Shown in pieces: positions 7,798 to 11,334 of a stretch of DNA of 64,000 nt (position 1 is its first letter; every line of letters starts with the position of its first letter). The position numbers were made by a program, and so were the translations under genes. The stretch spans positions 605,001 to 669,000 of the forward strand of contig NZ_AP022829.1 in assembly GCF_011405655.1 (NCBI RefSeq), read 5' to 3'. Source of the stretch: Adlercreutzia hattorii. GTDB taxonomy: Bacteria; Actinomycetota; Coriobacteriia; Coriobacteriales; Eggerthellaceae. A model generated the notes under the pieces. The model was given only the letters and a program-made list of their open reading frames with translations, had not been told where the DNA came from and did no database searches.

Positions 7798-7905
7798 GTG
7801 CCTCGAATGGGTATGGGCGGCGACATGTTCCGAACCTGGTCAGGTCCGGGAGGAAGCAGCCATAAGGGACCGCTGACGAGCGCCCATACCTATTCGGGGC
7901 ACTTT
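7798..7905 (+). ncRNA. ffs: Signal recognition particle RNA, small bacterial type (4.5S)
   Basis: RNA core of the signal recognition particle, which binds Ffh and targets membrane proteins to the translocon. The conserved domain IV tip is present (GTTCCGAACC, GGTCAGGTCCGGGAGGAAGC, then AGCAGCCATAAGG, near 7827-7867). The two ends pair over 21 bases (7798-7818 with 7882-7902) with three G-U pairs, and a TTTT tract follows. A TATACT that could serve as the -10 element lies about 20 bases upstream. A short open frame runs antisense across it and is not a gene. Confidence 0.95.
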
Positions 7906-8043
7906 TGCGCGAAGGGCGCACCGCGGTGCCAACGTAAAATTACCGTGGCGCTTTTGCGCAGGGCCTCGTTGCCGTGACCTCTGAAAATACAATGGGGCCG
8001 GCGGCGCGCCGCCTTCTACGTTATTCTGCAGATTGGAGACTCG

Positions 8044-8898
8044 GTGGGCATCATCGACTTTTTCATCAACCTTTTGAAAGACCCGCGCGGCTTCATCGCC
8101 GGCTGGATCATCGCTTTGGGCCCGGTGTGGGTGTACACGCCGCTGTTCCTTATCGTGTTCGTGGAGACGGGGCTCGTGTTCTTCCCGTTTCTGCCGGGCG
8201 ACTCGCTCCTGTTCGCGGCCGGCGTGTTCTCCGCCGACGGCGGCGGCCTGAACGTGTGGGCCACGCTCATCGTGTTCTGGGCGGCGGCCATTCTGGGCAA
8301 CACCTCGAACTATTGGATCGCGCGCCTGTTCGGTAGCCGCATCATCGATTCGGGGAAGGTGAAGGCGCTCACGCCCGAGCGCATGGCCAAGCTCGATCAC
8401 TTCTTCGAGCGCTATGGCGGGCTCACGATCATCATCACGCGGTTCATGCCGTTTTTCCGCACCTTCGCGCCGTTCATCGCCGGTACCGGACACATGAACT
8501 TCGGGAAGTTCACGTTCTTCAACGCCGTCGGCGGCATCTCCTGGGTGAGCCTGTTCGTACTGGTGGGATACTTCTTCGGCGGCATTCCGCTGGTGCAGGA
8601 GCACTTCGAGGTGATCGTGCTGGGCATTGTGGCCGTGTCCGTGGCGCCGGCGTTCATCGGTGTCATCAAGGCTGCTCTCACGAGCCGTCGCGCCAAAGAG
8701 GGCGATCCGGTGGCCCAGGCCGAGGAGCGCGTGAGCGAGGCCGAGTACCAACGCGAGCTGACCGAGGAGCGCGTGATGCGCGCCGAGGCCGAGGCGAAGG
8801 CGGAGGCGCGGCGCCGGGTAGCGTCTGAGCAGACCGCGCAGCCGACCGAGGAGACGCAGGCGCCGGTTTCCGAGACCGAGGAGAAAGACGGGGAATAG
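8044..8898 (+). CDS. DedA family membrane protein (VTT domain)
   Basis: Integral membrane protein of the DedA/VTT family, whose members are linked to undecaprenyl-phosphate or phospholipid flipping and membrane potential. Family signatures are visible: the early FLPGDSLLFAAG segment, and FFERYGG with TRFMPFFRTFAPFIAGTGHM about 125-155. There are about five hydrophobic segments. The last 70 residues are highly charged and predicted helical, longer than usual for the family. The start is GTG 8044, with GGAG at 8035-8038. Its stop is only 3 bases before dnaX, so the two are probably cotranscribed. Confidence 0.9.
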   Translation: MGIIDFFINLLKDPRGFIAGWIIALGPVWVYTPLFLIVFVETGLVFFPFLPGDSLLFAAGVFSADGGGLNVWATLIVFWAAAILGNTSNYWIARLFGSRIIDSGKVKALTPERMAKLDHFFERYGGLTIIITRFMPFFRTFAPFIAGTGHMNFGKFTFFNAVGGISWVSLFVLVGYFFGGIPLVQEHFEVIVLGIVAVSVAPAFIGVIKAALTSRRAKEGDPVAQAEERVSEAEYQRELTEERVMRAEAEAKAEARRRVASEQTAQPTEETQAPVSETEEKDGE

Positions 8899-8901
8899 GC
8901 C

Positions 8902-11334
8902 ATGGCCGAGGCACTCTATCGCAAGTACCGACCGCAGATCTTCGAGGACGTGGTCGGCCAGGAGCACATCGAGCGCACCATTAAAAACGCCATCGCCCAG
9001 GACAAGGTGAGCCATGCCTACCTGTTCACGGGCCCGCGCGGCACCGGCAAGACCACCACGGCGCGCCTTCTGGCCAAGGCGCTTTTGTGCGAGAAGGGGC
9101 CCACGGACACACCCGACGGCACCTGTGACGATTGCGAGATGATCGCTGCCGGCGAGCACCCGGACGTCTACGAGTTGGACGCCGCGAGCCGCACCGGCGT
9201 GGAGAACGTCCGCGAGGAGATTATCGGCCGCGTGCAGTTCGCGCCGACCCGCGGGCGCTACAAGGTGTACATCATCGACGAGGTGCACATGCTCTCGACG
9301 GCCGCTTTCAACGCGCTTCTGAAGACGCTGGAGGAGCCGCCGAGCCACGTGGTGTTCATCCTGGCCACCACCGATCCGCAGAAGGTGCCCGAGACCATTC
9401 ACTCGCGCTGCCAGCGCTTCGATTTCCGCCGCATCTCCACCGAGGCCATGGTGTCGCGGCTGGGTGCCATTTGCACCGCCGAGAACGTGGAGTTCGAGGG
9501 GGAGGCGCTCGAGCTCATCGCGCACCGGGCTGAGGGCGGCATGCGCAATGCGCTCACTTCGCTGGAGCAGCTCATCGCCTTCGGTGACGGTGCGGTGACC
9601 ATGGAAGTGGCCGAGCGGATGCTGGGAGCCGTGGACTCCACGGATTTGGCCGGCATTGTGCGGACGATAGGCGCCCGCGATGCGGCGGCGTGCTTCCGCT
9701 GGGTGGCCGAGTACGTGGAAACCGGCGCCGACATGGCCCGGTTCGTGGCGAATCTGGCCGAGCACATGCGCAACATGTACGTCATGGCCGTGGCGGGACC
9801 TGAGGTGGTGCTCGACGTGTCCGAGGCGACGCGCCGCGAGCTTTCCGAGGAGCTGCCGCTGTTCGGCGTCGACCGTCTGGCGCGACTTCTGGGCGTTTTG
9901 GGGGATGTAGCCGGCGAGCTGAAGACGTCCACGAACCCGCGGCTTACCTTCGAGATCGCGCTGACGCGCATGGTGCGCCCCGATGCCGATGTGACGCTGG
10001 AGGCTCTGGCCGAGCGTGTGGAAACCCTGGAGCGCCAGCTGGCCGGCGCCTCTGTCGTGGCTGCCGCGGCGCCCGCGTCCGCAGGCGTGCCGGTGGCTGC
10101 TCCTGCGCCTGTGTCTGCCGCTGCTCCGGCGGTGGTCGTTCCGGCAGCGGTTGCCCCTGCGTCTGCGGCAACCGCCCCGGCTGCTGTTGCCCCTGCAGGA
10201 GCGAACCCGGCTGCGGCCGCCCCGGCGGGATCGAGCCCCGTAGGGGGCGACCTTGGTCGTCCCTCGGCTCCGGCCGGGTCGGCGCCGTGCGACAGCCAGT
10301 CTGTCCCGCTCGCGGAGGGCGGATCTGTGTCCGCCCCTACGGAAGGGGTTGCCCCGACGGCAGCCCCTGCCGCGGCGACTCCGGCCGCAGTTGCCTCCGC
10401 CCCGTCTACGGCATCTGCCCCGGCCCCCGCGCCGTCCGCTCCGGCGGCCGCGGGCTCTCTGTCGCCCGAGATCGTCGCCACGCTCTCGAACATGGCGGCG
10501 CTGCAGCGCCTCTGGGCCGGCGTCCTCGCCTCGTTGAAGAAGTCCAAGGCGGCCTATGGCGTGCTGTTCATGAACACCAAAGCGGTCTTCGATGCGGCGG
10601 CGGGCGCGCTTTTGATCGAGTTCCCCGCCGAGAACGACTTCGCCTTCCGCGCCGTGCAGAAACCCGACGTGCAGGCCGAGCTCGCCCAGGCCCTGCGCCG
10701 AGAAGCCCACGGGGACATTCCCTTCGAGCTGCGCAAGGGCGGCGCCTCGGCTCCGATGGCCTCTGCCCCCGCCGCGGCTTCCGCATTTAACGCACCCGCA
10801 CCGGTAGCTCAGTCGGTACCTGCCCCGTCCGCTGCCTCTTCCGCTGCTTCGGCGAGCCCGATGTCCGGCGCGCCTTCTAGCGTGAACGCGCCCGCGGTTC
10901 CCGCTTCCGCTGCTGCGTCGCCGGTCCCCGCGCCCGATGACGATCGGCCGCCCTACGACGACTACGTCCCCTACGACGATGCGGATATCCCCCTCGAGGA
11001 CCCCTTCGCCGCCCGAGCCGCCTCGCCCCAAGGCGCAGCGACCTCCCCGGCGCCGAGCTTCCCCGCAAATGCCGCTTCCGCAGCTCCTTCCGAGGTGCCT
11101 CCGTGGGAGGATGCGCCCCAGGTGCCGGCGCCGTCTGGTGCGACACCTCAAGCGCCTGCGTTCGCTCCTGCCCCCTCGCCGGCCCCTTCGATGGCAACAC
11201 CGTCCGCCTCCGCGCTTCCCCCCGAGCCCGATGCCGTGTCCGGGCCTTCCCCGAACCCCGTAGAGGAGCCCGACCTCGCCGCCTCGCTTGCCTTCGGCTT
11301 CGGCGACGGCGTCAACTTCGAGGAAGTCATCTAG
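8902..11334 (+). CDS. dnaX: DNA polymerase III subunits gamma and tau
   Basis: Clamp-loader ATPase of the replisome. Walker A is GPRGTGKT (44-51), Walker B IIDEVH (about 124-129), followed by the lid and collar domains to about residue 375. The zinc module has Cys63, Cys75 and Cys78, but Asp72 replaces the second of the four usual cysteines. Residues about 385-520 form an Ala/Pro/Val linker. A folded block (about 520-615, starting SPEIVATLSNMAALQRLW) matches the tau domain that contacts the polymerase. A second low-complexity tail runs to the C terminus. At 810 residues it is longer than most homologues. No slippery A-rich frameshift site is obvious. It heads the classic dnaX-ybaB-recR run. 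Confidence 0.95.
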   Translation: MAEALYRKYRPQIFEDVVGQEHIERTIKNAIAQDKVSHAYLFTGPRGTGKTTTARLLAKALLCEKGPTDTPDGTCDDCEMIAAGEHPDVYELDAASRTGVENVREEIIGRVQFAPTRGRYKVYIIDEVHMLSTAAFNALLKTLEEPPSHVVFILATTDPQKVPETIHSRCQRFDFRRISTEAMVSRLGAICTAENVEFEGEALELIAHRAEGGMRNALTSLEQLIAFGDGAVTMEVAERMLGAVDSTDLAGIVRTIGARDAAACFRWVAEYVETGADMARFVANLAEHMRNMYVMAVAGPEVVLDVSEATRRELSEELPLFGVDRLARLLGVLGDVAGELKTSTNPRLTFEIALTRMVRPDADVTLEALAERVETLERQLAGASVVAAAAPASAGVPVAAPAPVSAAAPAVVVPAAVAPASAATAPAAVAPAGANPAAAAPAGSSPVGGDLGRPSAPAGSAPCDSQSVPLAEGGSVSAPTEGVAPTAAPAAATPAAVASAPSTASAPAPAPSAPAAAGSLSPEIVATLSNMAALQRLWAGVLASLKKSKAAYGVLFMNTKAVFDAAAGALLIEFPAENDFAFRAVQKPDVQAELAQALRREAHGDIPFELRKGGASAPMASAPAAASAFNAPAPVAQSVPAPSAASSAASASPMSGAPSSVNAPAVPASAAASPVPAPDDDRPPYDDYVPYDDADIPLEDPFAARAASPQGAATSPAPSFPANAASAAPSEVPPWEDAPQVPAPSGATPQAPAFAPAPSPAPSMATPSASALPPEPDAVSGPSPNPVEEPDLAASLAFGFGDGVNFEEVI
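10240..10340. repeat. Palindromic repeat embedded in frame in dnaX
   Basis: The outer ends GTAGGGG (10240-10246) and CCCCTAC (10334-10340) pair. Between them are two further hairpins: GGCGACC-TT-GGTCGTC near 10246-10261, and GGGCGGA-TCTGTG-TCCGCCC at 10318-10337. The result could fold as a three-way cruciform. The segment is open in the dnaX frame and encodes about 34 Gly/Ser/Pro/Ala-rich residues (near 447-480) of the tau linker. The layout resembles the GTAGGGGCG-type palindromic repeats I recall from gut anaerobe genomes; that comparison is from memory. Confidence 0.55.

Follow-up and report, generated by a model that had tools for sequence, protein, structure and literature searches.

The window, i.e. 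the whole stretch of 64,000 nucleotides analyzed here (G000:C1:605001-669000, from the 2.9 Mb single-contig genome G000), contains a dnaX gene whose nearest named relatives, over the first ~382-390 residues of the product, come from uncultured Adlercreutzia (94% identity), and A. muris, A. mucosicola and A. equolifaciens show 89-90% identity over the same region. The host, a gut bacterium, is accordingly an Adlercreutzia-like member of Eggerthellaceae. A prior sequence-only reading had placed a palindromic repeat with outer GTAGGGG and CCCCTAC arms and two internal hairpins at 10240-10340, in frame within the linker of this protein. The presence there of a hairpin-forming repeat of a usually intergenic kind is confirmed: the GTAGGGG arm begins at 10240, the CCCCTAC arm ends at 10340, and addition of the conserved flanking CC and GG extends the full element to 10238-10342. 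The features of the locus are:

8902-11334, + strand: dnaX, DNA polymerase III tau/gamma, 810 aa (Pfam DNA_pol3_delta2, DNAX_ATPase_lid and DNA_pol3_gamma3; solved pol III gamma/tau chains matched at E 3e-80)
10238-10342, no strand: REP-like doublet of 105 bp with the in-frame translation ...PVGGDLGRPSAPAGSAPCDSQSVPLAEGGSVSAPT... (sequence, fold and covariance model)
10238-10264, + strand: left hairpin unit, comprising a CCGTAG foot and a stem-loop (covariance model E 4.0e-7, the unit itself being one of the 21 training rows of the model)
10265-10315, no strand: spacer separating the units, by inspection longer than its counterpart in the common doublets of 79-85 bp
10316-10342, - strand: right hairpin unit, inverted, with a loop of six bases against the usual four (E 0.003)

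The frame 8902-11334 stays open across the element, which contributes about 35 residues to the tau linker of DnaX. The predicted fold comprises an outer stem, a hairpin at each end and weaker stems in between, with a folding energy of -61.5 kcal/mol (z -2.35) that was equalled by 3 of 200 shuffles. This stable fold, along with a TAG in the +1 frame at 10241, within the element, would be compatible with the hairpins acting in the dnaX mRNA, via frameshifting or pausing that sets the gamma:tau ratio, or serving as sites in the DNA. However, the linker contains neither a slippery heptamer nor an A/T run, the element is missing from five congeners examined, and 16 other ORFs hold the same element, making such a role highly improbable. 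The earlier proposal of an effect on the choice between gamma and tau finds no footing in the rest of the gene either: no run of six or more A or T occurs anywhere in dnaX, and the only heptamers of the X XXY YYZ form, at 9030 and 9897, precede the linker, and neither is A AAA AAG.

Among the candidates scored, the covariance model (E <= 1) recovered no further unit within the window, and scans of the window with short motifs gave counts near the chance level. A known structured RNA was rejected as the identity of the element, as Rfam at its gathering threshold reported the SRP RNA alone in the window. This small bacterial SRP RNA gene lies upstream of dnaX (7805-7898), and an open frame of 1103 aa on the strand opposite dnaX (7840-11151, - strand) is probably a high-GC artefact.

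A genome-wide family of GTAG-footed hairpins

A BLAST search with the segment as query in the genome that carries it recovered at least 58 other pieces, the best at E 1.9e-9 among those scored (40 of 77 candidates, yielding 59 pieces including the segment itself). A single-unit covariance model trained on 21 units gave at least 114 matches genome-wide at E <= 1, a lower bound obtained with 150 of 3783 first-look candidates scored. Leaving out seven short or overlapping matches, 107 units were kept, all with E < 0.25. These at least 107 units group into at least 75 elements, namely 32 inverted doublets and 43 singles, and 53 of the 75 are not placed in an ORF, in keeping with the earlier description of the repeat as intergenic in type.

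The consensus unit has the form YY-CCGTAG-GGGCNGACC-TTGG-TCNGCCC. Its edges are sharp, with CCGTAGGGG conserved at 88-100% per position across the 107 units and the flanks showing weak conservation except for two pyrimidines. The GTAG at the foot of the stem is conserved at 88-96% per position in these units, a figure that is partly built in since GTAG belonged to the search model. In the 21 units, 99.4% of the stem cells are paired, and 19 cells are altered on both sides, where shuffles gave 6.4 and none of 500 reached as many, with alignment columns 12-25 and 13-24 exchanging in a compensatory manner. Of the five measures of covariation, two are weaker: 21 of 500 shuffles scored as high for pairs changed on both sides, and 81 of 500 did so for further pair types.

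The doublets measure 79-85 bp in 27 of 32 cases, 105 bp in four and 131 bp in one, and the opposite order of units also occurs (in RecQ, an unknown protein and a histidine kinase). A pattern search allowing no more than 30 bases between the feet gave no match because the feet of the doublets lie ~80-105 bp apart. The right end of the dnaX spacer resembles, by inspection, the spacer of the doublet at G000:C1:326173. The 131-bp element (G000:C1:1522909-1523044) has an apparent third hairpin between its end units. No target-site duplication of the kind expected for TIR-type (DDE) MITEs was seen by eye in the flanks of the 32 doublets.

The Ala/Pro linker is a high-GC, low-complexity region with many weak inverted repeats, and the segment might in principle be an old native coding repeat of this linker that was never mobile, resembling the other copies by chance or through gene conversion. 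However, the BLAST match to a copy elsewhere, the sharp family edges, the location of most copies outside ORFs, and the lack of the peptide in more distant DnaX frames leave this reading with next to no probability.

Copies inside genes and their reading frames

That such repeats rarely enter essential genes, as had been supposed, needs correction, for 22 of the 75 elements (26 of the 107 units) lie inside 17 ORFs. A codon-bias coding test flagged 11 of the 75, dnaX not among them, and 11 further in-ORF elements were added by reading open frames. A Pfam match is present in 16 of the 17 host ORFs, which encode a Fer4_5 membrane protein, MetH, two U32 proteins, DnaX, QueH and a tRNA(U5)-methyltransferase-like protein; a GNAT + TsaD fusion, two ABC ATPases (ABC-F members by reading of the sequences), PrmC, RecQ and an unknown protein; and a protein kinase, a histidine kinase, the exonuclease VII small subunit (XseB) and an Mfd-like helicase. 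In the hosts compared, the inserts sit at loops or linkers. In RecQ, residues 403-471 (69 residues, including both units) stand where the solved relative 1oyw (E. coli RecQ) has one residue. The histidine kinase has ~66 residues between two aligned parts of its ATPase region, and QueH has 74 between two aligned parts where its solved relative has 19. The U32 insert is absent from all eight congeners, its site being a loop of variable length. The terminal cases are less secure, namely those in the tails of XseB and the Mfd-like helicase, near the C-terminus of the unknown protein and at the N-terminus of the methyltransferase. The fusion host (L163, G000:C1:907900-912900) is a single ORF in which a GNAT acetyltransferase is joined to TsaD, with TsaB perhaps preceding them, and its repeat unit lies between the GNAT and TsaD parts.

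The left unit is read in a VGGDLGRP-like frame in 13 of the 16 ORFs carrying one (p 0.02) and as RRG.. in the other three, while its third frame contains a TAG. The right units (n=9) are SAPTE-like in seven cases and VAPYG-like in two. All four in-ORF doublets have lengths that are multiples of three (81, 105, 105 and 81), compared with 12 of the 28 other doublets (one-sided p 0.05); the numbers behind these frame and length statistics are modest, and four in-ORF doublets are a small sample.

The use of one of two open frames in most of these genes, together with the recurrence of the same frame in the DnaX proteins of two other Eggerthellaceae (L104 and L107) despite other stem sequences, could be taken to mean that the peptide was recruited, i.e. 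that the shared VGGDLGRPS frame reflects a benefit to the tau linker and other hosts, such as solubility or a binding motif. Against this, the alternative open frame (RRGRPWSP) is rich in Arg and Trp and may simply be worse tolerated, the hosts are without a common function, the right units are read in two frames, and a GTAGGGGCGCG stretch in L120 DnaX, not accepted by the strict hairpin detector, uses the other frame. Recruitment of the peptide hence appears improbable.

Distribution in relatives and the search for a mobilizer

Among 114 DnaX frames (duplicates and the window's own included), a VGGD in the linker is confined to the window's gene, L067 and L208, the latter two probably being one and the same sister species. 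Conservation of the peptide in distant DnaX proteins had been named as the sign of native coding sequence; it is found in none of the more distant frames examined. The sister dnaX has a right-type unit followed by a left-type unit, the reverse of the order in the window, and 11 of the 12 bases preceding the left unit are identical between the two. The shared bases suggest that one insertion probably took place before the two lineages separated and underwent rearrangement afterwards, and the opposite order implies that the history was not that of one clean insertion.

Across nine genomes of the genus, units at E <= 0.01 number 98 in G000, 12 in G063, seven in G061 (all weak) and one each in G051 and G064, with none in the remaining four. 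Six of the eight congeners yielded a DnaX at E <= 1e-100; that of G063 has units, and the other five are without them. Family-wide, under stricter filters, the unit model has matches in 5 of 119 genomes, four of them in this genus. The L104 and L107 DnaX units are read in the VGGDLGRPS-type frame. In 80 named loci, the strict detector found three units in dnaX (174 kb) and none in the flanks (466 kb); a looser detector added two matches outside dnaX, in L074 and L145. No exact empty site at the base level was obtained for dnaX or U32 because the dnaX linker and the U32 loop are too variable. The dnaX linker spans 123-192 residues in 10 relatives measured, except for L104 (91) and L107 (122). 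The DnaX linker of Adlercreutzia sp. ZJ141 (L112) has SVRSDEWPERADAAAAQRTPS-like repeated peptide segments, another route of linker growth.

A RAYT-type PF01797 match was found neither in G000 nor in its eight congeners, and the element is therefore classified as GTAG-REP-like rather than as a RAYT-driven REPIN. The six PF01797 matches in G000 score alike (133-139 bits) and look IS200-type; the one copy typed scored 153.6 bits with the IS200 transposase model versus 38.4 with the REP transposase model (cut-off 80). PF01797 matches are present in 60 of the 119 family genomes, and some of these are longer and weaker and, by reading of the sequences, RAYT-like. Inspection of 29 Y1 loci of both types (L212-L240) revealed three incidental hairpins and no unit of this kind in the flanks. 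One of these loci (L228, 1420-2232), from another Eggerthellaceae genome, encodes a Y1-type protein of 270 aa that is extended at its C-terminus and is without flanking units of the dnaX-type family. A correlation of IS200 with the units was rejected, as G065 has an IS200-like match and no unit at E <= 0.01, and the sister G063 (79% complete) has units and no PF01797 match. At L035 (1280-2150; G000:C1:1179814-1180688) an IS200-type tnpA splits a doublet, sitting between its units.

Interpretation and comparison with known systems

Taken together, the dnaX insert is very likely a non-autonomous, REPIN-like, GTAG-tagged doublet that entered the linker and is translated and tolerated there as a spacer. 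Such a palindrome doublet would have multiplied within this lineage and inserted into the Ala/Pro-rich, presumably disordered dnaX linker, probably at a time before this lineage and its closest known species diverged. It would be translated as a hydrophilic spacer because its 105 bp are divisible by three and no stop interrupts the VGGDLGRPS ... SAPTE frame, and it would be tolerated because the length of the linker is free to vary. The same process would have operated in about 16 other genes, with insertions that shift the frame, place the TAG of GTAG in frame or fall in folded cores presumably being purged. Copying of the single-stranded hairpins was probably the work of a Y1 tyrosine transposase that has meanwhile been lost or acts in trans. 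The analysis demonstrates the repeat family and its structure, an open frame running through the insert and the lack of the insert in relatives; we infer transposition, actual translation and neutrality of the peptide from these patterns. The earlier term "domesticated" implies a function, and none is shown here for the insert. A bolder and rather doubtful proposal is that this Eggerthellaceae palindrome is in effect pre-adapted to genes, both ends sharing a permissive frame that yields a disordered linker, and that it spreads through housekeeping proteins and intergenic DNA without a resident RAYT, in convergence with the Rickettsia elements discussed below.

These observations extend the in-frame colonization of housekeeping genes by small palindromes beyond Rickettsia and previously described groups. 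The 17 host ORFs, together with relatives that lack the insert, offer a setting in which the origin of new linker segments and the frames that are tolerated become testable. The observations also warn against taking such inserts for DnaX biology.

GTAG-tagged REPs, REPINs and BIMEs have been described as short, high-copy palindromes with a GTAG foot that form inverted doublets and are mostly extragenic, with some copies inside genes, many of these in replication and repair genes (PMC3733652; see also PMC3116915). The present family shares with GTAG-REPs and REPINs a 20-40 bp palindrome in many copies (107 units), the GTAG foot, a stem kept by compensatory change (21 units), inverted doublets (32 of 75 elements) and a mostly extragenic location; it differs in the lack of an associated RAYT in G000 and the eight congeners, and its intragenic share is 22 of 75 elements. 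GTAG repeats are described in Proteobacteria, Cyanobacteria, Chloroflexi and PVC (PMC3733652); the words Actinobacteria and dnaX are absent from the main text of that paper, and literature searches listed no prior report of such repeats in Eggerthellaceae/Coriobacteriia or in dnaX. IS200/IS605 elements, whose Y1 transposases act on hairpins (PMC6006769), are represented in G000 by the six IS200-type tnpA copies. Rickettsia palindromic elements (RPEs) are in-frame insertions in many genes of likely functional proteins, and those of R. conorii have sequences ending in CGTC (PMC3733652). The present elements are likewise palindromes in frame inside coding genes, a likeness drawn by description, and they differ in carrying GTAG rather than CGTC as the terminal tag. 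Intragenic REPs and in-frame Rickettsia palindromes are already known, and what is new is their extension to another bacterial group.
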